The notes beneath the pieces were generated by a model. It had not been told where the DNA came from. It saw only the letters and a list, made by a program, of their open reading frames with translations, and did not search any database. Position numbers and translations under genes: made by a program. From NCBI GenBank assembly GCA_943736015.1, contig OX031065.1, positions 50,570,992 to 50,634,991 of the forward strand: DNA of 64,000 nucleotides, given 5' to 3'. How positions within the stretch are numbered: position 1 is the stretch's first letter; each line of letters begins with the position of its first letter. This DNA comes from Tridacna crocea. Taxonomy: Eukaryota; Mollusca; Bivalvia; Cardiida; Cardiidae. This document shows, one piece after another, positions 3,401 through 61,300 of the stretch.

Positions 3401-6400
3401 GGTCAGCCTGCGCAGAACGCGCAGACTGACCTAGACCGAAACATTTCGCTAAAGGTCAATTTTCTGTATAAACAAGCAACCGTCCACTTAGCCTATTACC
3501 ACACAATCCCTCTTTTGACACCCCTGAAAAAGAAGCCTTTAGAAAACATCGTGGGAAAAGGAGAAAATGCATTTTCTCCTTTTCCCACGATGTTTTCTAC
3601 CCTTTACAAAACAACTTTCAATTTTTCAGTCACTTTTAGTTTGTCGTCTGCAAATGTTTTCAGTTTGGACAAACCTAAAATTTTGTCGTTTGGTAATGAG
3701 TAAAAAAAGAAAGAAATTGCTCTAAACGAGTTCAACGAGAAATTAATTTCACTTTTTTTTTTTATACAAATTTATGACTTTTACATAGTTATATGAACCC
3801 TGTTCTGAATAAAGGGAATATAATAAGCTTTGTTAAAAAATCTGTTATTACAATAAAACTTTTCGAGTACTCTTCAGACACCTCTCGTTCTCTGTAAAAT
3901 TCTGAAAGTATTTAGTCGTTTTCCGGAGAAGTGTTTGGCTAATACGGCTTTTGTCATGATGACTTAAAGGGCCTTTTCTCATTTTCATTTTTTTATTTAT
4001 TTATTTATCTCAAACATATAAAGTCTACAAAACACATTTTTCTCTCCTAACGCAAAGCAACTAAACGGCTTCATGCAGTAAATGATGTTTAACCAGTTTA
4101 TTTTTAAAAGATCAGATATGACGTCATCATGCTAACAAATTTGAAACGATTCAACAAAATTGACGCGTGTTATAAATCAAGTGAAATTTCCACAAACCTT
4201 TGAAAATTCGTATGCGAAATTTAAATAAAATTTAAGAGGCTTTGTAGCCGATTAAAGAAACACCACTGTTTATTTTTTCTTCAAATTTGTCTTTCTTCTT
4301 TACTAGTTTGCTGGCTATCGCCTAATTCAGCAATGAAATATTTTTGAAGTTAGGCGAGATTGTAGAAATCTGAAAAGGGTCCCTTAACCCTTTACCCCAT
4401 AAAGCATTTCTATGGTATCTCTAATTGACCCTAAATAACAGCAAGGATGAAACCGTTTTTTATGTGTATATGACACCTTTTGATAGTACAGAAAAAATTG
4501 TGACAAAAGTGAAATTGCTCGTGACGAGCAATTTCACCTTTTGCCACAATGTTTTCCAAAGGCTCCTACAAGCAATGCGTAGAGATGAGTATCTATGGAG
4601 TAAAGGATTAATAAGATGGAAAAAAAATAAGAGCTATATAAAATATAATTGTTCTTGAATTTTCTACCACTAAAGGCCTAGCGATATTTTCCCTTTACAA
4701 CATATATACCCATTAGCAAGACATGTAGCCCTGATTTTGACAGGGTTAATGTGTTAACCCTTTCAGCGTTATTGAGCGAAATAAGGGTCTTTTGCGGGCA
4801 GCATGGATCAAGATCAGACTGCACAGAACGTGCAGTCTGATCTTAGATCTATACCGTCCGCCAGCTTCATCAAGCTTATAAAGTATAAATCTTTCTTCGT
4901 CTAATTGGGTAGTACTTTCTGCAGTCGACAGGAGTCGAGTTTACATATTTGTCGGTGAGAGAGTAAAAATTGACACCGTGTATGGAATCTCTGGTAAAAC
5001 TCCACTTTCGGGGGGGGAAACAAGAAACGGTTAGCAGCCTATTAGCATACCGCCATTTTTTCTCGGTGATACATTCGTGATGGATTCATTGATATGAGGA
5101 CTTGTGAATAAAAACAAATTAAGATTGCCGGAATACACAAAACAGACGCCCTTAATTCGCTTCTATCAAATCATTCAATAACTATTCTCCTTCACATTAG
5201 GGAGATATCCAATCCGCAATTTAAACGGCTCTTTTTCCCTTGGGGCTTGCTCTTAGCACGATGTGTGTGAAAGAGAGCGAGAGAGAAAGAGATAAAAATT
5301 GCATGGCTCCTTTGAGTACCAATAGGCGAAGAAAATGTAAGCAGATTTTGTGGACGGCCGTATATCAAGATCAGACTGCACGTTACGTGAAGTCTGGGCC
5401 CGTATTCACCAACCATTCTTGAGGATATTCTTAGTCTTATTCTCCAAGGTTTTTCTTTTGTAAGTAACATAACATCTGATTGGCTAAACCGAATGGTTTA
5501 GCCAATCAGAAGTTGTGTTACTTACAAATGTAGAAAACTCTGGAGAATAAAACAAAGAACGTTCTTAAGAACGGTTGGTGAATACAGGCCCTGAACTTGA
5601 TCTACGCCGTCCTTTTCTGAATTTGAGTCTTGAAAATAAAAATCCATTATTTCAAGTGGGAATGTAATATTGAACTACAAGAAAAAGTCAATCTGTTTAC
5701 TTATCGACAGAAGAGTTTGCACCACAACTATTCACCTGTTACGACTTTCCACCACCGTGTGGACGAAAACTTGGTTGGAAAAAGGAGAAACTGCTTGTGA
5801 AACCATCATGTTTTCCCTTTTCCCACAATGGTTTCGACTTTTTAAATGTTCCATCAATTTAATGATACTTTTCTCTTCTTCAAATGCTATTCGTATGGAT
5901 AAGTACAAACCTTGTCGTCTTGTATGGAGTATAGATAGTGAAATAATTCAGTCAAAGAAAAGAACTCGTTTTGTCCATTTCTCAGATTTGCATATTTGCC
6001 CATATCTCATTTTTAGAGTGTAGATCTAAACCAGCACGTTATGTGCAGTCTGATCTTGATCAAAGGCATCTCAGTGCTATAAGGTTTAACTCTTAACCAA
6101 ACGACAAAATTTTTGACATGTCCAAAATGAAAGGATTTGCAGACGACAAATTAAATGTAACTGAAATAATTATTTTTGTTTTGGATGCGGAAGAAAACTT
6201 TGTGGGAAAATGAGAATATGCTGTTACCAGTATTTTTTTTCTTTTTCCAACAATGTTTTCAAAAGGTTTCTTATACAGTTGTGTCCTTCTTTCGTTTTCT
6301 GAGAACGTTTGCAGTTGTTCCGGAATAAATTATGTCTTGCATAGGAGTATCAAGAAAGGGAAAGTTTACCCTCTGTCAAACACTTCCGTTTTAACTCTTT

Positions 6401-9400
6401 ACCAAACGACAAAATTTTAGACTGGTCCAAATTGAAAGCATTTGCTGACGACAAAATAAGGGTGACTGAAAAATTGAAATTTGTTCAGGGTAGGGTAGAA
6501 AACACTGTGGGAAAAGGAGAAAATGCTGGTTACCAGCATTTTCTCCTTTTCCCACAGTGTTTTCAAAAGGCTTCTTTCTCAGGGGCGTCAAAAGTAGGGA
6601 TTGTGTGGTAATGGGTTAACCCTCTTACCACACAATCCTGACTTTAAATACCCCTGTGAAAGAGGCCTTTAAAAAAATTGTGGGAAAAGGAGAAAAGGCT
6701 GGTAACCAGCGTTTTCTCCTTTTCCCACAATGTTTTCCTCCCTTTCTAAAACAAGTTTCAATTCTTTAGTCACATTCATTTTGTCGTCTGCGAATGCTTT
6801 CAATTTGGACCTGTCTAAAATTTTGTAGTTTGTTAAAGGGTCTAAGTACATGATAGATAGCAGGATTTGAGAATTTCACTAGAAAAGGGATAAAATGCTG
6901 GATTCTAACATTTTTTCCTTTTTCAACAATGTTTTCTATTCTTCTAAAGTCAAATTTCAATTTTTGAGTCACGTTTATTCTGTCGTCTGCAAATGCTTCC
7001 AATTTGGACATGCCTCAACATTTGTCATTTGGTAAAGAGTTATTTTTAAAGCAGCAATCTCTGTGCTGTGACATCGAGAGCGGCACCAGAATTGGCAGGA
7101 AAAACTCCGTCAGAGATTAGCTGTGGAATGTTACCGAGGAATCATATTTTATCGCACCCATTTATCACCTCTGCTCACAAATCGCAAGATTTCGGCTATG
7201 ATTGCGACACTCGAGGGGAAACCGTGTGACGGGAAATGCTAGAACTTTCATCATAAATTTGGAGAATGACAGTAGAGGATTCCAAATGGTAAATGATGGG
7301 TCAACTTCGCTGGAACACAATGGCTCTTATCTGGTAGTTTATCTAGCAAGGAAACAAGTTTCGGGAAACATTTTTGTTAGCCTCGCGTATGAGAAGAAAA
7401 AGAGAGAAGACTTTCGCTTTTGGGATGAACAGGGGCTGATGGATAGAGGTATCGTTTTACTGTCGTATAGCCGTGTCTTAGAGTTAGACTGAACTTTCGG
7501 GAAATCTGCCCATATAGCCATTGCACAACAAGACGATGGCGAAATATTTTCGGTTGTTTAACCCTGTACCCAACGAAAATATTTCAGACTGGTCCAAAAT
7601 GAATGCACTTGCAGACGACAAAAATAAACGTAACTCAAAAGTCTAGAAATTTATTTTCAGCAGGGCAGAAAACATTGTGAGAAAAGGAGAAAATGCTGGT
7701 TACCAGCATTTTCTCCTTTTTCCTCAATGTTTTCGAATGATACCTATTTCAGGGTCGTAATAATCAGGAAATGTTTGGTTAATGGTTAACCGGATATACA
7801 ATGCCAAACACCACCAATCTATGTGATGCTGTAATGAAAAAAATTCTCCATTTTGGAAAATTGATAAACTTAATATGTCGTTCTTTATATACTAGCGAGA
7901 AAAAATAAATATGGTATTTTCTATTATCAATGTCTTTTCCTTACCGCTTACATTTTCCCCTACCCCTCTCAATAACAAGGTCTTCTGGTACTAAAATATT
8001 TGTATTGCATTTTTATCATATTCCTGAACTGGTAAACAGCCTCATATGGAAAACAATACATTTTTTTCAAGTCAAAGTTTCATTTATAATCATTTTTTAA
8101 AACACGTGCATTCATCATGTTGAAACTTTTATCGAACAGTCTCCTTTTCTAACAAAAATGAAGAAGAAAAACATCTGAAAACATTGTTGGGCCGCATTTT
8201 TTCTTTTCACACATCATTTTTTAGCCTTCCAATGTCAAATGCTATCATTTTGGCTACGTTTAAGCTGTAATGTGACAATTATTTTTAGAAAATCTGAAAA
8301 AACATCACCTTCTGATAATGCATTAAGACAAACCGACGCCAAGACTGACTTTTCGAATGAAACGAATATATTGATAATTCGAGCAAAGTAATAATCCATA
8401 CTCGTATTCGATTTAACGAGGTTTTCAAATACCAAAGACAACACTGAAATCTTTCATGGATAGTGTAGATTAAGATCAGATTGCACAGAACGTGCAGTTT
8501 GATCTTTGATCTACACTTTCCATTGCTTTATTCTAGATTATGGCCCAACTGTATCTTGTTCTTGCTGAAAAAATGTCTTTGAAAATACAATCTATTTGTG
8601 ACCTGTCATGCGAAAAGGGACCATCTGGGAATTCTGCACATCAGTTAGATGAAAACAGAACAACAATAGTGAAGGTCAATTTAAGTTGTGGTTCAAAAAT
8701 GATGGTATAACAAGGTAGAATGGCCTCTTTTCATACAGAAAATGTCATTAAAGCGAAAAATGTCAACCCTGGTCAGACTGCGCGATTAGCGCAGTCTGAC
8801 CAGGGTTGACACTTTTCGCAGTTCCTGAAACGTTCCTTTTTGCGTCATGGGTCACATTTATTCAAAACAGAAAACGTCGAAATATTTTTATATTGCTACT
8901 GATACCCCTGTTCAGTCCTATCAACAACAACAACAACAACAACGAATTATCCGAGACAGGGATTTCTCAAAGATGTATTGTAATGGATGACCGGTGTGAC
9001 GGTAAAATTTGTTTTTGGCAAGAAAAAATCTTGGAGGAGTGAGATATTTGTCTGTAATAGGTTGTCATTAATCATCGAAAACAGACAGTATTGTTAATGT
9101 GTTTCTTTATGCAGTGATTCTGACAAATTGGCAGGTTGTGCCTTCTTTATTTCACTGAGAATTACTGGTACTTGTGCGTCGTTCATTCCAACTGCTTTTA
9201 TGCTGGGAGCTGTCCGAAAAGAAACTATACTATTCAACTTTTGCTTGGGATCAAAACCAAAATATTGTTTATTTTTTCGAATGGGCAAATCCGTTTTTTT
9301 TTTTCGCTTTCCACGATGTTTGAAAGAACTTTATTCTGTTTATTTGATATTGATTTCCTTTACTATGACCATAGATGAAATGAACTTGTTTTTGTTTCAA

Positions 9401-15400: not shown

Positions 15401-18400
15401 TTTTATCTCAGACTGCAAAAAAAAATGGCGTCCATGTTGGTTGGACTACCTTTTTTACATGTATTCAAAAGTAGTCCCCTGCTGAAAATAGTGTGCTTAA
15501 ATAATGCAGGAGTGCTGCTGAAACGGCGGATGGATTTTACATAAACATGGCCGAAAAAATTCGAAACTATCCGTTAACAAATCCAGAGATGTTTTGTCAG
15601 GACTATTTATCACGTTAAGATAGCCTTTTACGCTTTCGTTGCATAGGCGAAAACTGTGTTTTTGCGGACGGGATAGATCAAAATCAGACTGCACAGAATG
15701 TTCAGTCTGATCTTGAATCTATACCGTCCGCGTGTTCAGTCAAGCCTGTAAAAAAACTTTCTCAGTTTCAGAGGATTGTATTTCTAGCTGTACAAAGAGA
15801 CTATATCTTCGGCGCTGATAGAGTTAAAATTGGTGCCCACGCAGTTTGAAAATGACCACTTACAGGCTGGCCGAACTATATCTGGCCACTCGGCATAAAA
15901 GTGTCCATTGTCAAGGTTAATTACGAATTTTCATTGCCAGTAATTGGGACTGAAAGATTGGACAATGGGATGAGTGGTCACTGTGGTGTTAGATGCACCC
16001 CTGACCATCAACAATATTGGTACCCAGCGGACAATGCAGAAACGCCGTAACTTTCTCGAATGACTGTTGGGTTTTTTTGTTGTTGTTGTTGCTGCTGTTT
16101 CATTTGTTATTGGTGTTTTTTTGTTGCTGCTGTCCTTGTTACTAATATTTATAAACATCAGGCTAGTAACCCGTAATCAAACAATTCCATGTTCTAACTC
16201 CCTGAGGAAATGGACTTTTGGAAACATTATTGGATAAAGAAAGATTTGCTGGTAACCATGATTCCATCACTTAGTAACGATAAAAGAGAACAAAGGGATA
16301 CACGAGTTAAAGATACCAGCTCGACGGCAGTTTTCTCTAATGTGAAATCGGGACCTATATTTGGCAAATTAAGACCACGATTGTATACTCGCGTGTTATT
16401 TAGGCAGAATATGTCACAAACATCGAACAGGCTTTGTGGAGGATGGAACTTTATGTTATTTCTATACCTAACTACAACGCGAACATTTGTTACCCATTAC
16501 GCAAAAGGAGTCATCTGGAAATTCTGTAGATCAATTAGATTAAAACAGATCAACGATAGTGCAGGTTTGTTTGAGTTGACAAGTCAAAAATGATTGTATA
16601 ACAAGGTACAATGACCACTGTTCATACAGAAAATATCATTAAAGCAAAAAGTGTCAACTCTGGTCAGACCAGGGTTGACACTTTTCGCAGTTCCCAGAAG
16701 GTCCCTTTTTGCGTGATGGTCACATTTAGTTGCACAACGCATGTTAATAGCCTGAATGTTTTACAAGTTACACGATCTTAAGACGATATATATATATATT
16801 CAATTCCGGATTTTCAACTCTTCTACAAATCGTTTTCCACCCAAAATTAAGTTTTTTTTTTTTAAGTAGACCACATCTTTGCATATTTAGGTAACAAAAC
16901 TTTTAAATGTACCACTGATATCACACAAAGTCTGTGATTCACCTACACTTCTATATATGTTTTTATCAGCGAAATGTATCTACGCCAGTTAGAAATACAA
17001 GTAAAACAACATGTGATTGCTGCTTTCTTTCGAGTCCTTTCAAATGATGGTTTATTGTAATTTTTGTTAAACATCACTGTTGTTTAACAGTCACCTATAT
17101 TAAGCAACCAATATATTTTAATTTCAGAATTTACGTATTCTAAATGAAATTGACCTTTGTGATACAGCAACTTGTCTTTATGGGTTAGAATGTTAGCATA
17201 GTTTGTTCTCTAATGGGGTGGGGGGGGGGGGGGGGAGAGGGAGGGCAGTTTCAGACCGTTTGGCGATCCTATGATATAAAGATAGCATACAGCAGTCACA
17301 GAACATCGACAAATAAAAGAGTGCCTAGGCCAAGAAATCGATTCGAAGTACCAATGGTTGTTTTATATGTTTGTTTATCATTCATCACTACATTTTGTAT
17401 TTCAACATTAAATACACCAATACTTATTACCAGTTTTGTTGACCATCACATTCTAATATTCATTGATTAGTCAATACTCAATAGCATAATGAATGTTTTA
17501 GGTAGCACATTACTGCACGCAGCTCTGTATCTTTAATTGACAGAACGTGTGTCAGTCGGACGATACGTGTTTACGATCAGATTTTGTTTGTATTGTTTAA
17601 AAGGTTTCTGTTGAAAACCCCAAGGAGTAAATTACCCCCAAAACGGGTACTCGCCCCTGGGGTTGAGGTCGGCGTGGACAGACCGGTCCCCACTGTCTGT
17701 GGTGAAAATTACAGTATAGGGCTCGAAAAGGTAATGAAGATGGTCAGTTAATTACAGGACCTGGCTGAAGTTTCCACTGACCACTTGAATAACATGGGAT
17801 GATGATTTATGAACGCATTGCTATAACCTTTTATCAATGACACCACAAAACCTCTCCTTAATGCTGTCCCAAACAGTCCAGAAATTTAACTTACTCGTGG
17901 AAGAAAGATTTGAAAAAAAAAATCTTGAGGGAAAAGGGAAACAAATATTTTCTCTTTTTCCCAAAGTTCCGTTTCTAGCATGACATAGACAAATAACTTT
18001 ATATGAGCCAAAACTAATTTGACCTCTATCAATGTGTTCGATTCTAACGAGTGGAAAATTCTGTCGTTCAGTAAAGAGCTAATACTTTTTCGGTCAGCTA
18101 GGAAAACGAGATTTTATCGAGGTCTAAAGATACAATTACATTGCATCATTTGTTACCAGATTTTCTCTCCTTTTCTCACAATATTTTCAACAGCCTTTTC
18201 CCTAAGGGTCGTTAAGCCATAGATAGGTCTAGTAGAGGGTTAAATTCTGTCAAACCAGCCTGCGTTTATACACTGCCTTTAACCCTTTACCTCATATGCC
18301 AATTTTAGGCTCCTTCAATTCAACAGAAAATAAACATATGATGTCAAAAACATGGACAAATGGGGAAACAATTATCCGATTGAGTGAAAAACATTGTGGG

Positions 18401-21400
18401 AAAAGGAGAAATTGCTCGTTACGAGCAATTTCTCCTTTTCCCACAATGTTTTCAAAAGCTGTCTTTTGTTGATGTGTCAAAATGAGTATGTATGGAGTAA
18501 AGGGTTAATTTGTATGTGTTCAAAAATTTTGTAAAGAATAAGTTGTCCACGTATAACAATAGGATAACCAGGGCCATATTCTCCAGCCATTCTATATTGC
18601 ATTCACAGCCTTTTTATATATAGTTTTGAAAAATAACGTAATTTCTGATTGGCTAAACCAAATGGTTTAGCCAATCAAGAATTACGTTACTTTGAAAAGT
18701 AAACAGATTATTTTCAGAATTGGTCAAAGAATGATCGAAAGAATGGTGTACATAGTACATAGGGCCCAGGACTTTATCTGTCTGTTATAAAAATCCTAGA
18801 TGGAAAGATAGCACTGAACGAGCACAGAACTGAAATGAAAACTATTTTAAACATAATACAAGTTTCAGAGAATAATTGCTACACTGAAATAAGAAGATTA
18901 TCAATCGTGCATTTTTACAACTACAATTCCGCCCTACAATTCCAATAGGTTGCTTAAAAAAGCTTTTTCTGATTCTGATTAATACTTTTAATTAATTGAT
19001 ACGGTAAAACCGTTGCACATTTGAATGGCCTGACATTTACTTTGTTTCAAACACTTCGGAAGACTTGCCATGTTTTCTCTTAATATGCCTGTAGGACCAC
19101 ACATGCAGATACAAGAGATTCCAAAAAAGAAAAAAAAAGATGCATACAATTGGCAGATTTTCAAACATGTCTAGAAGTGTTGTTTATTCTTTATTTACTG
19201 ATTATGTTGTGATTCCTGTGAAGCCTTAGTCGTTACGAACAAACGATGAGCCCAGAAAAAAACGTTTTAGGCTTTCCTCTCAGTTCTGCATGGTCGCCAT
19301 GTTGTGTAGTTTACGTATAACATATTTTGTCTCTAATATTAACCCATTAACAAACGACAATATTTTAGACTGGTCCAAATTGAAAGCATTTGCTGACGAC
19401 AAAATAAAAGTGACTGAAAATTTGAAATTTGTTTTTTGAAGGGTAGAAAACATTGTGGGAAAAGGAGAAAATGCTGGTTACCAGCATTTTCTCCTTTTCC
19501 CACAATGTTTTCTAAAGGCTTCTTTCTCCGGGGCGTCAAAAGTAAGGAATGTGTGGTAATGGGTTAACTGTAGTTGACAATCTATTTTATCTATTTACAT
19601 GCAGTGCTGTAGTAATTATCTTAATATTTTCGTCGAGAAATATATTGTTTAAAGTAACATTATAGAAACGAATATGTGCAACGAAGAGAAAATCGAGAAC
19701 AGAACGTCCTGACGTTACCATTTTTTTTTTCTTTTTTATCAATGGAGTACTGTTGATATACTTTTTTTTAAAGAAAGATTGAAATAGAAAAAATATATGA
19801 ATTGCTTTAGGCAATACCAAAGTTAAGATCGACATATGCAGAGAGAGAGAGAGAGATACAGTCAGACAGCGAGAGTTACCGAAAGAATTGAGTTTGCGAT
19901 TAAAGCACAAGTCCAGGGCCTGTATTCACCAACCATTCTTAAGAACGTATTTTGTCTTATTCTTCAGAATTTTCTACATTTGTAAGTAACACAACTTCTT
20001 ATTGGCGAAACCGAATGGTTTAGCCAATCAGAAGTTGTGTTACATTACAAATTTACAAAACCTTGGAGAATAAGATTAAGTATATTCCCAAGAATGTTTG
20101 GTGAATATGGGCCTTGGTTATTCCAAACTTGGCCTTGCAAAAATATCTAATTAATCAGTAATCAGTTCATCTATTTTTCTGTACTGTCTGTCAAGCTATT
20201 TCCTCTACGTTGGGTTTTTGTGCTTTTCATTTTGATAAAGTTGAACTAAGCAAACTACAAAATATGTAAAAATGGATTCGCCAAAAATGTATTTCACTCT
20301 TCTTTAAATTTTCTTTTCCTATGAGAAGATACATAGCCCATGTCTGGATTGTCCATGCATTTATTGTTTGCAGTTGTCAATCAGAAATTATATAATAATG
20401 GTCACAATAGAGAAGGAAAAAGAAAGAATATGAACCAAATGATTTCTGAAATTAAATGTCTAAACCCTCAAAATCTACATGAAAAAATAAAAATGAAAAA
20501 TGCAGGATGCATCAATAAAAGAATTTTTTTCAAATAGTTGTGCAACAATTTTATAAATCATAATGTCGGAAAAAAATCTGCGAAAAAAGTCACGTGACCA
20601 AGCTTTATACTTGTAGTCAACATATTTAACTCTGAAGCTGTTAAATAGGTCACAAAGACCTTTTGCAGACAGTGTAGATTAAGATCAGACTGCACAGAAT
20701 GCCCGATAAGGAGATGCTTTTTTTCCCTAAAATAAAAATGACAATGATTTTGTTATAAGTAATAAGGCCACCTGCCCATAATACAAAAAAATACATGTAG
20801 AAACAAACATACAGAGTAGATGAGTTACATCTTGATATTAAAAAAAAACTGCACCTTTTAACATGTTTTCAAACAAAGCCTAATTGTAACGATCCGGGGG
20901 AAGAAGTTTCTTGAAAAGCACAATGAGAAACGGAGAAAACGCTTTTGGAGAAAAGTACATTTGAAATAGCAAAATCTTTGTTTTTACCACCAGCTTGAAA
21001 GTTTGATTTCACTTATTTAGCTGGATAATAGTTAGATATATTATTTAAATTATTATCATTCTTTATGTCAAGATTTGTAACTTTTTGTACTTTAATTCCA
21101 CTCTCGACACGTGAAGCGTGCCCTCAATTAATATGATATAAATAACCACTCAAGATTATATGATACTTCAGTCGAAATTCTCTTTCATTTTTAATAAAGC
21201 CACCTCGCTCCCCCACTCTAAAATGATTGACTGTAATAACATGCATTGCACGCCTCTCTCCCTTCTAAAGTTCACTTAATTTAAAGCAAATTACACTGCG
21301 CGTATTTGCATTCGCGCCACCGAACCACTTCGAACCCACAAAAGGCCCTCGAAATCATTCAATGGTGGAAACTCTTTGCCTAAACAGCGTCGATCAAAGA

Positions 21401-27400: not shown

Positions 27401-30009
27401 GTAGCAAAAAGTATCGACTCACATCAGCTTGCGCGGACTGCGCAGACTGATATGCGTCGACACTGTTTGCAGATGAGTTAAACCCCTCTTTAATAGAGCA
27501 GGGCTCAGATTATACTTTCTCACAGTAAGACAATTATTATTGTAAAAGATGAAACATAATTCTCCCATTTCTTGATTTAGCTTTGTCTTTTTTCGATGAC
27601 CTTTACGTACTTCAGGTATATACATAACGTGACAGACGACCATTTCTAAAACGTAGGGAGGGGGAAAAGAACCGTGGCGTTGCAAATTATTTTGTCATAA
27701 AAGATTACATGTGATATTTTCGTCTGTTGGTTGTTCTTTAAAATCAGGTTCGAAGCATTTGCATTTAGCATCATGACTTCATTAGAGTCTGTAACAATGC
27801 ATGAGATCGGGTCACTAAACGGCTTTTAACCCATTACCAAACGACAATATTTTAGACTGGTCCAAATTGAAACCATTTGCAGACGACAAAATTAAAGTGA
27901 CTGAAAATTTGAAATTTCAGAAGGATAGAAAACATTGTGGGAAAAGGAGAAAATGCTGGTTACCAGCATTTTCTCCTTTTCCCACAATGTTTTCCAAAGG
28001 CTTCTTTCTCAGGGGCGTCAAAAGTAGGGATTGTGTGGTAATGGGTTGAATAAGCCATGCTTTAAAAAGAGAAGGCTTGATGTATCTGTAAAAAGTATGG
28101 CGACCCAGGTCAGCCTGTGCGGTCCGCAGAAAATTGTTTTAAAAAATGTCCAAAGAAAAAACAAAGACTCTGAAATAGACTCTGAAGCGTTGGCTGACAG
28201 GAGTCGATCCTTTTTGCTATTGTTAAATTGTCAAAAGACCTGTTTACCATTTAAATTTTCTGGGTGTCAAAAGACCTGTTTACCCCATGGTTCATTCAAT
28301 CAATACCATTTAACCCATTACCACACAATACCTACTATTGACGCCCCTGAAGAAGAAGCCTTTAGAAAACATTGTGGGAAAAGGAGAAAATGCTGGTAAC
28401 CAGCATTTTCTCCTTTTCCCACAATGTTTTCTACCCTTCACAAAACAAATTTTCAAATTTTCAGTGACTTTTACTTTGTCTCCTGCAAATGTTTTCAATT
28501 TGGACAAACCTAAAATTTTGTCGTTTGGTAATGAGTTAAAAGAATCAATCATTTGAACTCTATATATCGTGTGCCAGTGCTTTTAACTCATTACCAGACG
28601 ACAAAATTTTACGTTTGTCCAAATCGAAAGCATTTGCAGACGACAATATAAAAGTGACTGAAGATTTGAAATAACCCGCATTTCTTCTTTTCCAACAATG
28701 TATTCTAAATGTTTCTTTCTCTGGGTCATCAAAAGTAGGGATTTTGTGGTAATGGGTTAAACTGATCACATTCAAGAAATAGTCCTCGGATGTCGACTAA
28801 TATATATTTGTTGTTGTTGTTGTTGTTGTTGCAGCAACTGTTGCTGTTGTTGTTATAGAATGATCACAAATATAAACAATTCATTCAAAATCCATTTCAG
28901 AGAATTTTTTTTTTGGTGGGGAGAGAACAGCAAAAGATAGTAATTTTTCATTGAATATTCGGCCTAGAAAAACTGTGTTAGTTAACCCTTTATCAAACAA
29001 TCCCTGGTTTTTACGACCCTTGGATAGAAGCCCTTTTAAAAACATTGTAGAAAAAGGAGAAAATGCTGGTAACCAATATTTTCTCCTTTTCCCACAATGT
29101 TTTCTACCCGGCTGGAAACAAAATTCAATTTTTGAGTTAGGTTTTTTTTTTTTTGACTGTCTGAATAAAAAAAGAAAAGAAGCTCTTAATTCTTTACCAA
29201 ACGACTTAATTTCGGACTGGTACAAATTGCAACCACTTGCAGAGGACAAAAAAAAAAACCTAACTCAAAAATTCATTGCAATTCTTTCCCGTATATTTCT
29301 AAATACAAGATTTGAAACGACAGCTAAAGTGGGTTTTTTTTGTATGGTAAGGCAGATATTGTAAGAAAATACAAAATCGCTTTAGACGAAATAGACACTG
29401 TTATTATCAGTTATTATTATCTGAGAAAAAAAATCAATGAATAAACAAAATAGATAAATGGATAAATAAATGAATTAATAAATGGATGAATGAATAAATA
29501 AATGCATAGATAAATGCATAAATAAATGAATTAATATATGGATAAATGAATAAATAAATGCATAGATAAATCCATAAATAAATAAATAATTAAATAATTA
29601 AATATATAAATAAATAATTAATTAATTAAATGAATAAATAAGGTATAATTATGTATATATAGATATTGATACCTAGTAAATAAGTAAGACAAGAAAAAAA
29701 ATAGTAACGTTTCTTACCAAGCGGGGCTAGAGGTACAGTCTCGCGGCTCTTTTTTGCCGGCGGTGGAGATTCACACAAAGTTCCTCTCGGCGAGAGGCAG
29801 TCCTCATGCTCGTCTGAACTGTGTCCAGATGTATAGTTTCTAGGATGGGCCTGCATTTTAGCCAATGTCCTTTTTCCTATCAAAGCATCTATAGAGAACG
29901 CCGTGGCTTTTGATGAAAGTTGGCACGCTTGTTTGGAATAGTTTAACGGGCTGCAATGTCCCTGGTAACTACCTACAGATGAGTTCGAATCTTCACTGGT
30001 GGGTTCCAT
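312..30009 (-). CDS. tbx20: tbx20-type T-box transcription factor gene (5 exons, 3' end outside window)
   Basis: This is a sequence-specific nuclear transcription factor of the T-box family. Five exons, 29718-30009, 24372-24636, 2829-2993, 1319-1427 and 312-479, join in frame to 333 codons, and every junction has GT donor and AG acceptor bases. The T-box begins near residue 163 ([17 protein letters not shown]) and continues through [58 protein letters not shown] and [18 protein letters not shown]. The KKKD...[11 protein letters not shown] stretch and [16 protein letters not shown] match TBX20/H15-midline better than TBX15/18/22 or TBX2/3, as I remember those families. The N-terminus carries an eh1-like FSIDALIG (residues 38-45), a candidate Groucho contact, and a basic PPAKKSRE. 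Intron positions match those known for vertebrate T-box genes. Introns are 5.1, 21.4, 1.4 and 0.8 kb. The end of the T-box and the C-terminus lie left of the window. Family known roles, heart and midline patterning, are inferred, not visible. Confidence 0.93.
496..625. repeat. family J repeat fragment
   Basis: Shares tactggaatcagcctgtc, repeated ccgtctgtgt, actagcaattgcctgtttctg and gctggcgggggtatta with the two copies at 9.5-9.9 kb. It joins directly to a family C half-element. Confidence 0.75.
628..778. mobile_element. family C foldback (left arm shortened)
   Basis: Centre gattggctaaaccatttggtttagccaatc, arms ttactttcac/gtgaaagtaa, right end ggttggtgaatacacacc followed by CTG. In tbx20 intron 4. 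Confidence 0.8.
1319..1427 (-). CDS. tbx20: tbx20 coding exon 4
   Basis: 109 bases between cttacag|A and AACAGTCAG|gtaaac. It encodes 36 residues, [20 protein letters not shown] followed by [16 protein letters not shown], the T-box middle. The first base completes the Arg codon left by exon 3. Phe replaces the usual Leu/Val before YVHPDSP, a conservative change. Confidence 0.96.
1525..1830. mobile_element. family L foldback element
   Basis: Long palindrome: tttatttcatcagtctgtgg, aaagggaaaggtatgcgaaa and the centre gtgccgtacggcac have complements to 1710. Homologous to 42525-42835 in inverted orientation. In tbx20 intron 3, about 100 bp upstream of exon 4's acceptor on the coding strand. Confidence 0.75.
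2290..2515 (+). mobile_element. tRNA-derived SINE
   Basis: tRNA-like head with A-box region ggatcagtggtaaagtg and B-box-like ggttcgagtct, then a ccacaggagtgcccttgtgc middle. The tail ccgtgatatgactgaaatac, gaaagcggcgtaaaacacc resembles the 3' domain of mollusc V-SINE/MetaSINE elements, as remembered. In tbx20 intron 3, opposite strand. Confidence 0.8.
2678..2770. repeat. family E GC-core palindrome
   Basis: tctacccatgtacgcctgcg, centre gcggactgc, and a complementary right arm ending catgggtaga. About 60 bp from the exon 3 donor of tbx20. Confidence 0.75.
2829..2993 (-). CDS. tbx20: tbx20 coding exon 3 (T-box core)
   Basis: Found by reading the minus strand between exons 2 and 4. It translates [20 protein letters not shown], then [20 protein letters not shown] and [14 protein letters not shown]. 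Acceptor ctttcag|A and donor CACAAG|gtaactt bound 165 bases. The DNA-contacting RMFPT and the [10 protein letters not shown] core are intact. DIDTKYS replaces the commoner DPDAKYI. A SINE and a GC-core palindrome flank it within 330 bp on the low-coordinate side. Confidence 0.96.
3382..3452. repeat. family E GC-core palindrome
   Basis: gcgaaaagtatcgacccagg, tcagcctgcgcagaacgcgcagactgacc; imperfect inverted repeat around gaac. Confidence 0.75.
3488..3704. mobile_element. family A foldback
   Basis: Typical ends (ctattaccacacaatccc ... tttggtaatgagta). The inner loop GCTGGTAACCAGC is deleted, leaving aaaatgcattttctcc. Outer arms carry a mirrored change, catcgtggg/cccacgatg. In tbx20 intron 2. 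Confidence 0.9.
3960..4384. mobile_element. family K element, divergent
   Basis: Ends aaagggcctttt and aaaagggtccctt form short inverted termini. Interior gaggctttgtagccgattaaagaaacacc matches 61.4-61.9 kb, and acgcaaagcaactaaacgg matches 9.9-10.1 kb. Confidence 0.6.
4384..4612. mobile_element. family A foldback, GCTCG loop subfamily
   Basis: TTAACCCTTTACCcc ... gagtaaaggattaat ends, with core gaaattgctcgtgacgagcaatttc. The interior matches the copy at 18.28-18.51 kb. Confidence 0.85.
4754..4865. mobile_element. family B foldback
   Basis: ttaaccctttcagcg end, then gatcaagatcagactgcac / gtgcagtctgatcttagatc dyad with ccgtccg. The right end is not resolved. Confidence 0.75.
5360..5620. mobile_element. 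family B core disrupted by a family C insertion
   Basis: Left B arm atatcaagatcagactgcac...aagtctg (to 5396) and right B remnant ctgaacttgatctacgccgtcc (from 5591) rejoin as a B dyad when 5397-5593 is removed. Confidence 0.75.
5397..5590. mobile_element. family C foldback with CTG target duplication
   Basis: Complete copy, ggcccgtattcaccaacc ... ggttggtgaatacaggcc. Centre gattggctaaaccgaatggtttagccaatc as a palindrome. CTG at 5394-5396 and 5591-5593. Confidence 0.88.
6026..6088. repeat. family B half-copy
   Basis: cagcacgttatgtgcagtctgatcttgatc, then aggcatctcagtgctataag, meeting the TTAA of the next family A copy. Confidence 0.6.
6085..6295. mobile_element. family A foldback, divergent
   Basis: ttaactcttaaccaaacgac, atttgcagacgacaaatt and gaaaactttgtgggaaaatg. 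The right arm is degraded. Confidence 0.75.
6390..6619. mobile_element. family A foldback
   Basis: Complete copy TTAACtctttaccaaacgac ... gtgtggtaatggGTTAA with a perfect gggaaaaggagaaaatgctgg palindrome. Shares its right TTAA with the next copy. Confidence 0.92.
6616..6843. mobile_element. family A foldback, abutting the previous copy
   Basis: Starts in the same TTAA (6616-6619). Opposite orientation: ccctcttaccacacaatcc first. Core loop ggctggtaaccagcg. Confidence 0.9.
6875..7042. mobile_element. family A foldback, partial
   Basis: Core aaaatgctggattctaacat and right part gtcgtctgcaaatgcttcc, catttggtaaagagttat. The left end is lost. Confidence 0.75.
7043..7556. other. intronic stretch without recognised repeat
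   Basis: Unique-looking DNA in tbx20 intron 2. A plus-strand open frame of 96 codons (7202-7492) has no recognisable domain and no splice or Kozak support. As the least repetitive block nearby it is a fair place to look for a conserved element. Confidence 0.35.
7557..7791. mobile_element. family A foldback
   Basis: tttaaccctgtacccaacg ... tttggttaatggttaac, core gaaaatgctggttaccagc. Confidence 0.88.
8458..8522. repeat. family B core palindrome
   Basis: tagtgtagattaagatcaga / ttgatctttgatctacactt around ttgcacagaacgtgcag. Confidence 0.75.
8600..8862. mobile_element. family E long foldback
   Basis: Ends tgacctgtcatgcgaaaagg and tttttgcgtcatgggtcac are inverted. Central gtcaaccctggtcagactgc has a mirrored arm. 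Homologous to 16490-16730. Confidence 0.75.
8925..8944. repeat. (AAC)n microsatellite
   Basis: caacaacaacaacaacaac, about six units. Confidence 0.8.
9505..9865 (+). repeat. family J, two direct copies
   Basis: Units at about 9511-9675 and 9711-9862. Each begins tatacccccgcaaaac, has cagcctgtc and ccgtgtgt blocks, then gtaattgcctgtttctg and gctgg(c/g)ggggtattatgtcac. A fragment lies at 0.5 kb. Confidence 0.8.
9925..10085. repeat. family K-related fragment
   Basis: acaaaacacatttttctct, gcaactaaacggttacatgc and gatcagatatgacgtcatca recur at 4.03-4.13 kb. Confidence 0.6.
10106..10340. mobile_element. family A foldback, divergent
   Basis: gaaaacactgtggggtgagg, aaatgctggttgctagcag and ttcccacaatgttttcttcc with an inserted acccaccca block. 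Confidence 0.65.
10413..10629. mobile_element. family A foldback
   Basis: TTAACCCatttccacaaaat ... gtggtaatgaGTTAA; core palindrome intact. Confidence 0.9.
10837..10892. repeat. (TTATG)n-like microsatellite
   Basis: Runs of gttatgttatg with variant gttgtg units. Confidence 0.8.
11206..11377. repeat. palindrome with ATAGGGTTT arms
   Basis: ctccagatagaggg ... aaaccctatgttatggctac, tcattagaatcgtctc / gagacgattctaatgagta, then caacatagggtttggcag and ttatctggag. A further single foldback element of about 170 bp. Confidence 0.75.
11611..11690. repeat. family A fragment
   Basis: aacccttcacaaaacgacaa, cctctgaagacgacaaattt; left end only. Confidence 0.65.
11708..11942. mobile_element. family A foldback
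   Basis: TTAACtcatcaccaaacga ... gcttgtgtggtatagagctaa. The core has an extra G/A pair, aggggaaaaaggagaaaatg. Confidence 0.9.
11943..12191. mobile_element. family A foldback, with degraded second copy on its left
   Basis: Left part aatactgggaaaaggagaaa, tgctggtaaccagcattttt, then a full-type end cattaccacacaatcccta to cacttggtaatgaGTTAA. Looks like one copy inserted in another. Confidence 0.8.
12543..12622. repeat. family M palindrome
   Basis: atcgtcggtttacttcaaaa, cctcgtaactacagtttgtt, then ggtaaaccgacgat closes the dyad. Related copy at 23185-23262. Confidence 0.7.
12912..12985. repeat. family D GC-core palindrome
   Basis: gacgtaaagtgccgtctcg / cgagacgacaccttac around gcggactgcgc. Confidence 0.75.
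13594..13797. mobile_element. family B foldback
   Basis: TTAACCCttcaggctgtaaa, perfect dyad gtagatcaagatcagactgc / gcagtctgatcttggatct, tail catctagcaggataaggg. Confidence 0.85.
13797..14026. mobile_element. family A foldback
   Basis: gaacgctctaccagacgaac ... acagggttatagataatggc; imperfect core gaaaaagggaaaatggtatt. Shares TTAA with the next copy. Confidence 0.8.
14023..14255. mobile_element. family A foldback
   Basis: TTAACtcattaacaaacgac ... gtatggcaatggcTTAA; core perfect. Confidence 0.92.
14536..14903. mobile_element. family F element
   Basis: TTAAGGTAGTGGATCtgtaata at left and tattacgggtccactatgTTAA at right, inverted termini of about 20 bp flanked by TTAA. Interior cagaaaagggaggtaattat recurs at 49.2 and 58.4 kb. 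Confidence 0.85.
14915..15165. mobile_element. family A foldback with poly-T expansion
   Basis: cTTAACtcatgaccaaacgac ... gtatggtaatggaTTAA. The usual tttgaaatttgttttgtgaa is replaced by a run of about 24 T (15001-15024), and tttcaaaggc is duplicated. Confidence 0.9.
15636..15735. repeat. family B foldback
   Basis: gcggacgggatagatcaaaa / ttgaatctataccgtccgc around gactgcacagaatgttcagtc. Confidence 0.75.
16167..16275. repeat. family A fragment
   Basis: taacccgtaatcaaacaatt, ccctgaggaaatggactttt, tttgctggtaaccatgatt; left half. Confidence 0.6.
16490..16730. mobile_element. family E long foldback, central deletion
   Basis: Matches 8600-8862 along ggtacaatgaccactgttca and tcattaaagcaaaaagtgtc. 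The GC loop is gone, leaving ctggtcagaccagggttgac. Confidence 0.7.
16731..18278. other. intronic stretch, mostly unassigned
   Basis: Holds a G-rich run at 17215-17247 and two degraded family A cores (about 17918-17960 and 18150-18240). No exon seen. A poly-T tract lies at 16852. Confidence 0.4.
18279..18508. mobile_element. family A foldback, GCTCG loop subfamily
   Basis: TTAACCCtttacctcatatg ... tatggagtaaaggGTTAA; core gaaattgctcgttacgagc as a perfect palindrome. Confidence 0.92.
18572..18766. mobile_element. family C foldback with CAG target duplication
   Basis: ggccatattctccagcc ... gtacatagggcc. Centre gattggctaaaccaaatggtttagccaatc as a palindrome. CAG at 18569-18571 and 18767-18769. 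Confidence 0.85.
19339..19567. mobile_element. family A foldback
   Basis: TTAACCCattaacaaacgac ... gtgtggtaatggGTTAA; perfect core. Confidence 0.93.
19917..20113. mobile_element. family C foldback
   Basis: ggcctgtattcaccaacc ... ggtgaatatgggcc; flanks CAG and TTG, so the duplication is eroded or mismatched. Confidence 0.85.
20114..22145. other. intronic stretch, AT-rich, little recognised
   Basis: Contains a family B remnant near 20626-20730 in which the right arm is deleted after actgcacaga. A (CT)n run lies at 21510-21522. No coding exon seen. Confidence 0.4.
22146..22335. mobile_element. family B foldback
   Basis: TTAACCCttaggctgctaag, tagattcaagatcagactgc / gcagtctgatcttggatcta, then gggttttcactatagaaata. 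Confidence 0.85.
22562..22833. mobile_element. family A foldback preceded by a short family A end
   Basis: 22562-22603 is a broken end (cttaactctttaccgtaagg). The full copy runs GTTAAtacattaccacacaa ... gtttggtaatgatTTAA. Confidence 0.88.
22830..23026. mobile_element. family A foldback, divergent, sharing TTAA
   Basis: ttaatacatttacagaggac ... cttcatttggtaaaggtct. Core ggaaaaagaggaaaatgctg, gcaagcattcttctctttttcc. Confidence 0.75.
23185..23262. repeat. family M palindrome
   Basis: catcgatttacttcaagaac, cctcgtaactacagcttg, ggaggttttggaagtaaaccgacgat in part; the arm order mirrors the left side. Confidence 0.7.
23970..24110. mobile_element. foldback with AATGTTATTAAG arms
   Basis: acaaaatgttattaagctcg / ggttcgcttaataacatttt, then actcgtttgataattttt and aaccaactcatgtcagatcg. 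A relative sits at 52870-52985. About 260 bp from tbx20 exon 2's donor side. Confidence 0.65.
24372..24636 (-). CDS. tbx20: tbx20 coding exon 2 (start of T-box)
   Basis: Acceptor tttttcag|AGCGA completes the split Glu codon. The exon encodes a Ser/Pro and Asp-rich linker ([20 protein letters not shown]), then [18 protein letters not shown] and [13 protein letters not shown], the first strand of the T-box. It ends GGAAG|gtaagttc with a split Arg codon (AG|A). The linker is poorly conserved; the last 30 residues are diagnostic. Confidence 0.95.
24975..25148. mobile_element. family B foldback
   Basis: cagtgtagatcaagatcaga / tctgatcttgatctatactg; its end gggTTAA meets the TTAA of the next family A copy. 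In tbx20 intron 1. Confidence 0.82.
25148..25394. mobile_element. family A foldback
   Basis: TTAACCCtttaccacacaat ... cgtttgggaaagagctatgc; left arm has one mismatch (ggcaaaaatg against cattttctcc). Confidence 0.88.
25490..25655 (+). mobile_element. SINE, 3' part
   Basis: agcagccagtggcttggaaa, aaactccaggaacgcatgga, ccgccgcgatatatctgaaa, ggcattaaacaccatac. Same middle and tail as 33.0-33.35 kb; the tRNA head is missing. Confidence 0.78.
25890..26300. mobile_element. two overlapping degraded family A copies
   Basis: Cores at about 25917-25966 and 26045-26210. The second carries a new palindrome, tgccggtgtaatgcaaagaa / ctctgcattacaccggca, and two direct copies of ctggtaaccagcattttctcc. Confidence 0.7.
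26798..27026. mobile_element. family A foldback
   Basis: taatcctttatcaaacgac ... gtgtggtaatggaTTAA; perfect core. Confidence 0.92.
27395..27480. repeat. family E GC-core palindrome
   Basis: tatcgactcacatcagcttg / gactgatatgcgtcgaca around cgcggactgcgc. Confidence 0.72.
27826..28049. mobile_element. family A foldback
   Basis: TTAACCCattaccaaacgac ... gtgtggtaatgggttga; perfect core. Confidence 0.92.
28309..28539. mobile_element. family A foldback
   Basis: tTTAACCCattaccacacaa ... gtttggtaatgaGTTAA; perfect core. Close to a consensus copy. Confidence 0.93.
28582..28760. mobile_element. family A foldback, left arm deleted
   Basis: TTAACtcattaccagacgac ... tttgtggtaatggGTTAA, but the core goes straight from gatttgaaataacccgcatt to cttttccaacaatg. 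Confidence 0.85.
28806..28855. repeat. (TTG)n microsatellite
   Basis: Interrupted ttg/gca repeats. Confidence 0.85.
28982..29270. mobile_element. two family A fragments
   Basis: 28982-29150 has TTAACCCtttatcaaacaat and a core with loop tggtaaccaat. 29186-29270 has ttaattctttaccaaacgac and acttgcagaggacaaaa. Confidence 0.75.
29430..29645. repeat. (AATAAATG)n-like AT-rich array
   Basis: About 210 bp of aataaatg / gataaat / aattaat units just 3' of tbx20 exon 1 on the coding strand. Confidence 0.85.
29718..30009 (-). CDS. tbx20: tbx20 coding exon 1
   Basis: Starts at ATG 30009-30007 in a good Kozak context (aaaATGG) and encodes 97 residues plus one base. It holds a Ser-rich start, the eh1-like [10 protein letters not shown], an acidic/Ser stretch (SSDEHEDC) and the basic PPAKKSRE. 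It ends CTTG|gtaagaaa, phase 1. The upstream in-frame TTG could extend the frame by three codons, but ATG is preferred. No T-box residues are present here, so assignment rests on splicing to exon 2 and on the FSIxALIG motif shared by several T-box N-termini. Confidence 0.88.
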
Positions 30010-39023: not shown

Positions 39024-39235
39024 ACCATTTAGCTGTTAAGCGGGACTCACTGACCTTTTGCGGACAGCTTAGATCAAAGATCAGACTGCACAAAACGTGC
39101 AGTCTGATCTTTGATCTAAACTGCCCGATGAGGTGATATTTTTCCCCGAAACATAACTTAAAAATCGTAATATTTTGGGGGTTTTTTTATGTCGAATTGA
39201 AAATTCTATTTTAGTTTTATAGCAGGATAAGACAT
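39024..39235. mobile_element. family B foldback
   Basis: catttagctgttaagcggga, tagatcaaagatcagactgc / gcagtctgatctttgatcta with the extra A mirrored on both arms. Confidence 0.88.
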
Positions 39236-43157: not shown

Positions 43158-43384
43158 TTAAGCCTTTACCTCACAATGCCGACTGTTAAAGACACTGAGA
43201 AAGAAGCCTTTGGAAAACATCGTTGGAAAATGAGAAAATGCTGGATACAAGCTTTTTCTCCTTTTCCAACGATGTTTTCTACCCTATGACAGACACCATA
43301 GAGCACGTTGCATATAGATTTTAGTCAGCAAATGCTTTCAACTTGGACAGATCTAGAATTTTACAGTATGGTAAAGAGTTTATG
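43158..43384. mobile_element. family A foldback
   Basis: tttaagcctttacctcacaa ... gtatggtaaagagttt. Mirrored arm change catcgttgg / ccaacgatg. Confidence 0.85.
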
Positions 43385-44435: not shown

Positions 44436-44625
44436 AACATAAGCAGACGACAATTTATATGTAGTTCAAACGGTGGAATATGTCTTTGATAGGGTAGAAA
44501 ACATTGCGGGTAAAGAAGAAAATGCTGGTTACCAGCATTTTCTTCTTTACCCGCAATGTTTTGAAAAAGGCTTCTTCCTCAGGATCGTTAAAACTCTGGA
44601 TTGTGTGGTAAACGAATGAACTGCA
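44436..44625. mobile_element. family A foldback with mirrored arm variants
   Basis: Core gcgggtaaagaagaaaatgc / gcattttcttctttacccgc: GGTAAAGAAG replaces GGAAAAGGAG on both arms. Right end gtgtggtaaacgaatgaa. Confidence 0.85.
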
Positions 44626-56550: not shown

Positions 56551-59500
56551 TTGTAAATGAGCATGAGTTAAAGCACCTGTAGTGCCGATGGTAGTAGCAG
56601 TAACAATGAAGACTATAATGATAACAATAAAAAGAAACCATTGATTTTCATGCAAATCAACTAAACCTTTTGTGGATGTGACACTTTTTAGTGCTTTATG
56701 GATCGTGTACACCAAGATCAGACTGCATAGAACATGCAGTCAGAATTCTAATCACAGGAACCTAAGACATAAAAATAAAATAGCCTGAGTCCATATTCCC
56801 CAACCTTCCCTTTCTGCATCTTAATTCTAATTCTAGGATTAGAAAGTGACAAAACATCTGATTGGTGAAACCATTTAGTATCTACGATTAGAAAGTAACA
56901 AAATATCTGATTGAAACCATTTAGTATAGCCAATCAAAACATGTGTAACTTTCAAATTTGGAAAACTCTTGAGACTAAGACTAAAAAGAGGTTCTTAGCT
57001 TTTAGGCTGCTCAGCGGAAATCAGGCAGCTTTTGTGGACGGTGTCGATAGGAATCAGTTTGCACAGAACGTGGTCTGATCTTGGATCTACAATTGTTTGG
57101 TTTTTGTTTTTTGATGAACTCTACTTTTCGCTAATATCAATCGCTATATACAAAATACTGTATTATATACAAAATCGCTATATTCTGGTTTAGCTTTAAA
57201 GGACGTGTCACGACTATAACTACCTTATATTTCAGACAGTGTAGATCAAGATCAGACTCTACAAAACGTTCAGTCTGATCTTTGATATAAACCATCCGGT
57301 CTCCTGACACACCACAGATAAAAGCAACCATGAAATCGCAATTATCTGGCTTTTATTCTATAATGAAAATGACGGCTTGGCCTTTATGGGGCTTTCACCG
57401 GTTACCAAACAATCCGGCTCTCTAAGGACCCTGAGGAAGAAGCCTTTTGAAAACATTATGGGAAAAGAAGAAAATGCTGGTAACCAGCATTTTCTTCTTT
57501 TCCCAGAATGTTTTCTTACCTTTCATAGATAAATACCTTCATTAGAATCACACTGAAAATGTTTTCAATTGCTTTGAATTTGAACGAGTAAACATTTTGT
57601 TCACGTGGTAAAGCGTTAAGGGTAATCATTGCGGGTTGGTTGGTTGTACTGGGGTTTAACGCCACTTTAACAGCTAAGGTCATATCTTGCGGTCGGTGAC
57701 GCACATGTGTTTCCTGGCTTTCTCACACCGGTACTTACACTACTTCCTTTTCAAAGCCACAGACTACTTTTCTCACATGCTTCAGCAGAGGTGAGAGGCA
57801 ATAATACGCCGGAAAGAAAGTTCGCCTCAACCGGATATCGAACTCACAACCACCAGGTCATGAGTCCGACACGCTCACCACTGAACCACCCGGGCTGGCT
57901 GGTAAACACTGCAGGCACAGACCTTAGATTTAAGGTTTCAACCGAAAGTGGCCCTTTTATTTCTCTGTCTGACTAAGAGCCAGTAATATTTATATAGTAA
58001 ATAAATAGAATTATATTTTGGCCTGAAGCTACAAGATGTTATACATCCTATTTGTTTGACATAATTGTTAAATGTAGCCTTTGGAAAAATGACCAACGTT
58101 GTACAAATGAATCTAATGGGAAAATTTTGATGTTAAATTGATATTTGTTTTAAATAGTTCCTTAGTGAAATCTCTGTTTATGGTACTAGTTAAAACTGTC
58201 TTATCGGGACAATTCGCGAGAACATCAATAATAACTGATTTAGTTGAATATATTTTCTGCACTAACTATTCAAGCCGATCTTAGTCATCACTTTGAGCAG
58301 ATGCATTTAACTATCCTTTTACATATCATGAGTCATTTATAAAGCCAGTCATTTGACGATAGTGGGAGTGAAGGCTGGTTTCCTAGGCTGCTAGGCTTAT
58401 GCGTGTAGCGTAATGACCTTTAGGTAGTAGACCCATAACGCTTCTTACGCCACATGATATATATATATATATTTTGTGGATAGTTGATAAATACGGATTT
58501 ATACAGATATAATACTTTTGCACATTTTTAAACGACCAGAAATTTCTTTGATATATATCTTGACAATTATTTGTAGATATCTTTGTTAGTTTCCAGAAAA
58601 GGGAGGTAATTATCACTTTATAATGCGAATATAGTGATTTTAGAATTATAAATGATAACTCTAAGAAAGAAAAAAAGGAAAAAGTGGTTCGGATAAAGTA
58701 GTAAAGTCATATAAAATCATACTCATTTTAAATTATAGCAAATTGTTTAAGATAATATTATGGTAGAAATAGATGTTTTCTATTACGGGATCCACTACCT
58801 TAAGTTTTATAGTTATCGTGCATGAAACACGATCATGTAAAACTATGTATACCGTGATAACTAAACTAATTCAATCAGACCAAGGTCAAAATTACTTTAC
58901 CTATACATGTGAGCCACCTTAGAACATGGAACAAGCTCAATTCGACCCCCACACATCCAAACTTTTATTGACAGCTCCATTTGCTCCGAACCCCACTGTC
59001 TCATCCCAGGATCGAACCCGCCGAGCTGCATAAAGAAATCTTTCCTCATTACCGCCATCATTCCCTGCACAGTACCCATAGGCATTGGTGCCACGCTGCC
59101 GTTCCTTGCAGTTTTTATTCGAGAGCTAAATGGAGCCCACATTTGACCTAAAGTTAGGGTGTCGAAAAAAGGGAACTGCTCATCGAAAATGCGTCTTACG
59201 TCAAATTTGAATGTATCTTGATCCACTCCACCCACATGTGAACATATCAGAGCCTTAGGGACGTCTTGTAATCGAGCAATGAGCGGCTCTAACCAGCCCG
59301 GAGCAACTTCCATATGTCCGTCCATCACTATAAAGTACTCGGCTGTCGTTGCTTCAATCCCTTTCTGACGGGCAAGCATTAAACCAAGTGGAGAGGAATT
59401 CTGTACAAGCTTAAGTTTCTCCACATTTGCAACATGTATTGCTATTTTCGCTTTCAACTCTGGATCTTTTGAACCATCGTCCACAAGTACAATTTCCTTG

Positions 59501-60680: not shown

Positions 60681-60712
60681 GATTCAATGTTAGAGTTCGT
60701 TGAGTTGATTAC

Positions 60713-60947: not shown

Positions 60948-61072
60948 CGATGCAGCTTGAACAAAACACTAATATCTTCCGAACCAGTCAGAGGCCATAA
61001 ATGTAAAATCTAAGTTACGAACTTTCATTAACTTACATGTATTTCCAATTTCACTTTTTGATTGATGGTAGC

Positions 61073-61300
61073 TTAACCCTTGCCCAAACGACAAATTTTG
61101 GACTCTTTCAAACTGAAAGAGTTTGCAGCCGACAATTTTAGATTTTGAGAAAATGGTAGCAAGTTCTCAAAAAGGGTAGAAAACACTGTGGGAAAAGGAG
61201 AAATTGCTCGTTACGAGCAATTTCTCCTTTGCCCACAGTGTTTTCAAAAGACTTTTACTGCAGACACGTAAAAACCAGGGCTTGTTTGGGAAAGGGTTAA
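61073..61300. mobile_element. family A foldback, GCTCG loop subfamily
   Basis: TTAACCCttgcccaaacgac ... gtttgggaaaggGTTAA; core gaaattgctcgttacgagc; mirrored cactgtggg / cccacagtg. Confidence 0.92.

Follow-up and report, generated by a model that had tools for sequence, protein, structure and literature searches.

The 229-bp family A element, copies of which lie in a 64,000-nt stretch of the Tridacna crocea genome (contig OX031065.1, positions 50,570,992 to 50,634,991; below, the window), has a palindrome in its middle whose two arms carry the same changes in mirrored form more often than expected by chance. The mirroring in family A is real, yet most arm changes are unmirrored. Some of the mirrored variants are inherited and others were made anew, and the symmetry is probably best explained by template switching at a low rate after insertion, combined with inheritance. 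The palindrome has 67 nt (33+1+33), namely an arm GAAAACATTGTGGGAAAAGGAGAAAATGCTGGT, a single centre base and the mirrored arm; as single-stranded DNA it is predicted by folding to form a hairpin over its whole length. A copy with the consensus arms, found by palindrome search and folding, is located at 27928..27994 on the minus strand, and a typical full-length element, supported by repeat-family analysis, a 229-position profile and genome matches, at 33617..33845 on the plus strand, with the central palindrome at 33670-33740.

The sample was drawn from about 350 kb, namely from the window, from 29 loci chosen for their similarity and from 19 10-kb stretches at set places, and the copies were oriented with the profile. 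After overlaps and array duplicates were dropped, 455 family A copies remained, 346 of them with enough of both arms; locus L001, which overlaps the window, loci L050-L057, which were picked for mirrored changes, and copies in which fewer than 20 arm positions are paired are left out. The 29 similarity-picked copies are excluded from the 264-copy set used for the centre base and are still present in the shuffle, centre-clustering, divergence and young/old counts. Flank sharing by carriers of a variant, the G14C counts and the totals for the 19 stretches were obtained before array copies were dropped. In three 10-kb loci (L039, L040 and L049), a unit of about 1.6-1.7 kb that includes a single family A copy is repeated in tandem; the copies of L040 and L049 carry changes on the left arm, and their right arm matches the consensus or nearly so. 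The apparent one-arm subfamilies G10C, A15G and A24C (left arm) and most of the mirrored T30A copies were an artefact of the arrays in L040 and L049, and one copy per array was kept.

With the five main subfamily variants excluded, 111 mirrored changes were found in 83 of the 346 copies, compared to 41.0 ± 6.0 when the right arms were re-dealt. The maximum of 500 such shuffles was 61, and arms read one to three positions out of register yielded 41-54. For 145 copies with at most two arm mismatches, 25 mirrored changes were observed vs 2.2 ± 1.6 with re-dealt arms. The shuffles, the register shifts and a genome-wide same-base control (see below) rule out a chance origin. A previous reading of the window from its letters (the sequence-only reading) had proposed to compare arm divergence within copies with that between copies and in the flanks. 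This comparison yielded 0.131 within copies, 0.167 between copies and 0.346 between copies in the flanks for the sample of 346, and 0.106 within vs 0.149 between copies for 48 copies of the window, eight of which have identical arms; the gap between the arm values is modest. Among copies with at most two mismatches, mirrored changes are more frequent in old copies than in young ones (6/26 vs 5/88, p=0.02), the young group including similarity-picked copies, which favours this result. Copying after insertion would produce such a difference, as would old sublineages.

The genome-wide count used a fixed identical 35-nt context, in which both arms were changed at the same position or, as a control, at neighbouring positions with the same base; allele types were tallied for the first 100 matches listed by contig order, which are not a random draw. 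At position 24, both arms are changed in 273 copies, and the changes are complementary in 93 of the 100 matches listed (88 C, 3 T, 2 G). At position 25 there are 191 such copies, with 86 of the 100 matches listed complementary (39 C, 35 T, 12 G), while the out-of-register control, left position 24 with right position 25, gave 16 copies, eight of them of the same type. The excess is weaker at position 29, where 235 copies have both arms changed and complementary pairs make up 54 of the 100 matches listed, vs about 40 expected from the margins. Changes of the left arm only at position 25 occur in 1,067 copies, with 40 C, 32 G and 28 T among the 100 matches listed. From these counts, mirrored changes amount to some percent of one-arm changes, unevenly across positions and bases.

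The origin of the mirrored variants was analyzed using the flanks. The majority arms of subfamily A2 (23 copies picked by at least five of eight diagnostic arm letters, a choice favouring the mirrored form) differ from those of A at four sites, all of them on both arms, and the two majority arms are identical. GCTCGT and its partner variants mark a subfamily with other flanks, the carriers sharing their flanks, and ACTGTGG is common to 24 copies with flanks closer than random. Of eight mirrored copies that were fetched, all three with A25T form one clade (0.9-2.6 percent apart in the flanks), whereas all three with A25C belong to different subfamilies (22-30 percent apart), as do both with A25G (about 30 percent apart). 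The nearest sampled relatives of two A25C copies (6 and 8 percent in the flanks) have the consensus at this position on both arms, and the third copy has no near relative in the sample. Since the three A25T copies fall into one clade and A2 carriers share flanks, while A25C and A25G are found in different subfamilies, both inheritance and new origin contribute. The sequence-only reading had named descent of each mirrored variant from one young source copy as an outcome that would contradict it; inheritance was found for the GCTCGT set, ACTGTGG and A25T, and not for A25C, which recurs.

Pure descent, in which every mirrored variant and every T centre stems from a source element already carrying it and nothing happens after insertion, is unlikely. 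The four mirrored differences of A2, the flank sharing, the A25T clade and the dominance of A24C at position 24 all agree with it, but the A25C and A25G copies do not, nor do copies with a T centre, which are unclustered (see below). The mirrored sources would themselves need an origin, and for G14C the one-arm forms (four and three copies) are rarer than the mirrored form (22 copies; array copies included).

The window copy at 44498..44562 has T11C, A15T and G20A, all mirrored (GGTAAAGAAG on both arms). This triple haplotype was found at one genome place among the matches within three mismatches. Two of these matches share mirrored A15T and G20A; in C2:18747891 one arm has the full set and the other A15T only, and in C6:16089103 T11C and A15T are confined to a single arm. 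Judged from their sequences, these partial carriers look like steps of arm copying. The lack of a two-arm donor for the triple haplotype within three mismatches also speaks against ectopic gene conversion, in which another copy, in either orientation, would overwrite the core and import mirrored variants and flipped centres. Donors are very numerous, the core could pair with them both ways, A25C is present in several subfamilies and divergence is lower in the core than in the flanks, as such conversion would have it. A donor in the opposite orientation would also bring a T centre, and nothing here counts against it as the source of the flips; as an account of the whole pattern we regard it as quite unlikely.

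The single centre base was examined in 264 flank-oriented copies, none of them picked by similarity. It is A in 205 copies, T in 43, G in 12 and C in four, while the neighbouring A (position 90) is T in nine and G in ten of the same copies. Genome-wide, the oriented 53-nt stretch of family A with any centre base has 37,512 exact matches, comprising 33,447 with A, 2,929 with T, 794 with G and 342 with C, while among the 100 matches listed for one-arm changes of A25, T (28) is less frequent than G (32) or C (40). Damage in the loop is expected to favour A to G. If point mutation produced T at 0.6 to 1.04 times the frequency of G, some 2,100-2,450 of the 37,512 copies would be flips. The copies with a T centre do not cluster: the nearest flank neighbour has T in 2 of 40 cases (null mean 4.0), and for the 12 copies with a neighbour within 15 percent, all 12 neighbours have an A centre. 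A complement-specific, recurrent change of the centre in unrelated copies is what inversion of the spacer predicts, which for a one-base spacer is a count argument. As T is far above G and C at the centre and the T-centre copies are unclustered, we infer spacer inversion of the kind known from template-switch mutagenesis. The other hallmark of that process, arms of an imperfect inverted repeat becoming mirrors of each other, corresponds to the in-register excess and the recurrent A25C.

The flips also bear on selection for a hairpin, in which elements with matched arms would transpose better and amplified lineages would show paired changes. A T for an A at the centre brings no gain to a hairpin, yet T is in excess and unclustered, and one-arm changes are the rule among copies. 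The mirrored subfamily differences (again with the picking that favours them) would suit such selection, as would the comparison of nearest neighbours (94 pairs), whose divergence in the core (0.036) is about half that in the flanks (0.062); we consider it very improbable as the main cause. The sequence-only reading had suggested that one arm is copied onto the other or that selection keeps a hairpin. Of the mechanisms that it named, arm copying by template switching fits best, considering the recurrence in unrelated subfamilies and the complement-biased centre, while hairpin selection, which may still act in the source elements, does not alone explain the flips.

Symmetry might instead be reset at transposition, with a single-stranded or hairpin intermediate copied from one arm. 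This would give mirrored clades such as A25T and mirrored steps between subfamilies. The share of T by fifths of flank divergence, from the youngest, is 2/53, 11/53, 10/53, 10/53 and 10/52. Its minimum in the least diverged fifth and its rise thereafter argue for events after insertion, and we hold a reset at transposition to be highly improbable. We know of no single-stranded or hairpin intermediate for cut-and-paste TTAA elements. For the fish Angel elements and in hairpin models of amplification of miniature inverted-repeat transposable elements (MITEs), arms are reportedly more alike within copies than between copies; compared to this, family A shows a modest difference and signs of a process acting after insertion.

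Template switching after insertion could act as follows. The two arms would mostly decay independently once the element has inserted. At a low rate, DNA synthesis through the palindrome would switch template between the arms. The new strand might fold back and copy itself, making one arm a perfect mirror of the other, or synthesis might switch to the opposite strand and back, which would invert the spacer, here one base, from A to T. Mirrored changes would then be passed on at transposition and come to mark clades and whole subfamilies. The physical process would be template switching in replication, flips and arm copying may be products of one process, and both would take place mainly after insertion. 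In a simple two-rate estimate for the sample, flips (rt) come to about 0.16 and arm copying (ct) to about 0.2, values of the same order (excess of mirrored changes per one-arm change 0.044-0.051); both are rough, since age and subfamily differences are confounded in flank divergence and ct includes inherited changes. At A/T sites between A/T neighbours, divergence is 0.039 in the core and 0.076 in the flanks. The low divergence of the core goes beyond what the measured arm copying explains (about 10 percent) and could be due to base composition, constraint at the level of the source or more copying than was detected.

Several observations weigh against template switching with inheritance as the explanation. 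The same 346 copies contain 1,455 one-arm mismatches, exceeding the 111 mirrored changes, and the claim of the sequence-only reading that the arms stay matched within a copy was overstated in view of this number and of the only modestly lower divergence within copies, although the mirrored excess is there. Relative to close relatives (flank distance below 12 percent, 111 copies), nine mirrored pair counts, which represent three distinct changes, stand against 142 one-arm changes, and placement by flanks was possible for only eight mirrored copies. The excess at position 24 is nearly all A24C (88 of the 100 matches listed); the other two alleles account for 5 of 100, or about 14 genome-wide if the list is typical, which is near the eight of the control. 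As these alleles are near the control level, arm copying must be uneven unless A24C is a single clone. The least diverged fifth has no excess of T (two T and three G or C among 53 copies); across the four older ones, T keeps to a level near 20 percent. Finally, a T centre is not associated with mirrored changes within copies (4/21 vs 19/135 for copies with at most four mismatches, p=0.52), and oriented mirrored A25C copies have T and A centres in a ratio of 2:9, vs 2929:33447 in the genome (p=0.22). Therefore, these counts do not support one process shared by flips and mirrored changes.

Family A is a TTAA-flanked MITE. This assignment is based on the presence of TTAA at both ends in 105 of 164 full-length copies with enough flank (left end only in 32, right end only in 20), on the lack of a direct duplication longer than TTAA around these copies and on a nested copy (L007:1501-1729), which fits its empty-site relatives without gaps once one TTAA is kept (12 of 659 matches listed). 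In the 229-position profile, the ends are TTAACCC and GGGTTAA or GAGTTAA. Other superfamilies with TTAA targets exist, for example Kolobok. The driver of family A is likely a putative piggyBac-type transposase. The left end is TTAACCC in 94 of the 164 copies and the right end is GAGTTAA in 62 and GGGTTAA in 51; these were compared with the terminal CC[C/T]T motif given in an excerpt of PMC2872659. The coral CMITEs of that excerpt, which are related to piggyBac, resemble family A in the TTAA duplication, the short ends, an internal part more conserved than the ends and the occurrence in tandem arrays. The conserved part of family A is the 67-nt palindrome, whereas the excerpted coral text (PMC2872659) never uses the word palindrome.

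The 19 stretches of 10 kb contain 166 family A matches with at least 20 paired arm positions, 68 of them full length (array copies still included). Scaled up from these stretches to the host genome (1.05 Gb, 18 large contigs), the copy number may reach hundreds of thousands. At least 39 further places in the genome are 95-97 percent identical to the element at 33617..33845 (40 of 2,616 candidates scored). Three copies from different genome places (L023, L028 and L030, each at 1501-1729) are identical over 229 bp, which is a sign of recent activity. No Rfam match was found within the window at gathering scores.

All the mirrored examples that the sequence-only reading had listed for family A and for a second palindromic family, B, are present in the window (strand not assigned for the family A copies that follow and for the 44.5-kb copy). 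G20A is mirrored at 57449..57515 (GAAG on both arms). At 3540..3599, T9C is mirrored (CATCG/CGATG) and the apex is lost symmetrically, the remaining arms being identical; the same kind of loss with identical remaining arms is seen in L020:2764-2956. T9C and G12T are mirrored at 43213..43279 (GTTGG/CCAAC), where the centre is T when oriented. The copy at 32556..32622 has mirrored C6T, the shared T8C (ACTGTGG on both arms) and GAAG on the left arm only. The copies at 33429..33493 and 61179..61245 have in common mirrored T8C, A26T and G31C (ACTGTGG on both arms; GCTCGT/ACGAGC), and the copy at 18388..18452 has mirrored A26T and G31C with a GCTCGTTACGAGC apex (GCTCGT/ACGAGC). An A2 palindrome with the GCTCGT apex at 4490..4556 has one-arm differences, and in a diverged palindrome at 35877..35944 the hairpin apex is extended by GTCGACC.

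In family B, GGC replaces TGC on both arms at 34182..34225 (read from the sequence print), and an extra A is present on both arms at 39061..39127, neither copy having an assigned strand. At 33916..33977 on the minus strand, both arms have the short (ATCAAG) form, and the spacer of this copy may be inverted relative to the flanks. The spacer of family B is longer, and among 70 matches there are 20 copies with a readable loop, which keep their orientation to the flanks except for this one possible inversion; the loops neither strongly support nor refute spacer inversion. A further palindromic family with TGGCTAAACC arms and a 4-nt spacer (ATTT, GAAT or AAAT) is found at 645-716, 5457-5528, 18630-18693 and 19986-20043; its copies, which are unoriented, may point to additional spacer inversions. 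Nine copies, likewise unoriented, belong to a third family with GGTTTAGCC arms. A long imperfect palindrome of another family (arms of about 80 nt) has two copies, at 1543-1700 and 42649-42812, seemingly in opposite orientation.

The window also contains two tandem arrays, at 51234-52609 and 47487-48913, of which one advances in steps of 33-34 nt and the other has units of close to 143 nt, and an AT-rich stretch resembling a simple repeat at 29417-29660. Open frames on the minus strand at 58897-60147 and 45274-45936 match glycosyltransferase family 2 and a ricin-type lectin domain.

Short-range template switching has mostly been studied event by event, in single genes or reporter assays. An example of a single-gene study is PMC8604942, whose excerpted text reports that in Saccharomyces template switching between short inverted repeats leads to arm homogenisation and spacer inversion, recurrently at the same repeat. 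Both outcomes have their likeness in family A. According to the same excerpt, the repeats that underwent inversion were mostly perfect beforehand (9 of 10 genes), and 9 of 10 inversions came without arm change. The yeast cases in this excerpt (PMC8604942) are single repeats in coding genes of strains, whereas family A offers one palindrome in tens of thousands of dispersed mobile copies, with counts and a control within the genome. In the excerpted text of PMC8794818, compensatory changes in RNA stems are ascribed to template switches, with loop inversion and compensatory change in six cases and loop inversion only in 69. The likeness to family A consists in paired changes of both halves and loop inversions arising from one event; the genes of PMC8794818, as excerpted, encode rRNA, while family A is a non-coding element. 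Among the open-licence papers listed, judged mostly from titles and openings of abstracts, none deals with arm copying across MITE copies.

The mechanism itself is already known, and the value lies in a replicated natural record within one genome: an identical context repeated in tens of thousands of copies, a one-base spacer that reports flips once oriented, and neighbouring positions as controls. We tentatively suggest, while holding the opposite to be somewhat more probable, that the palindrome serves as a natural recorder of template switching in the germline, with a flip rate of the same order as the substitution rate of one site, which would stop by itself once the arms have decayed (T near 20 percent), mirrored changes that would seed subfamilies and a core that would evolve in paired steps without selection for the hairpin. 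Family A could thus allow one genome to yield the rate of germline template switching, how far it depends on arm matching and what part of the "compensatory" changes it makes up.

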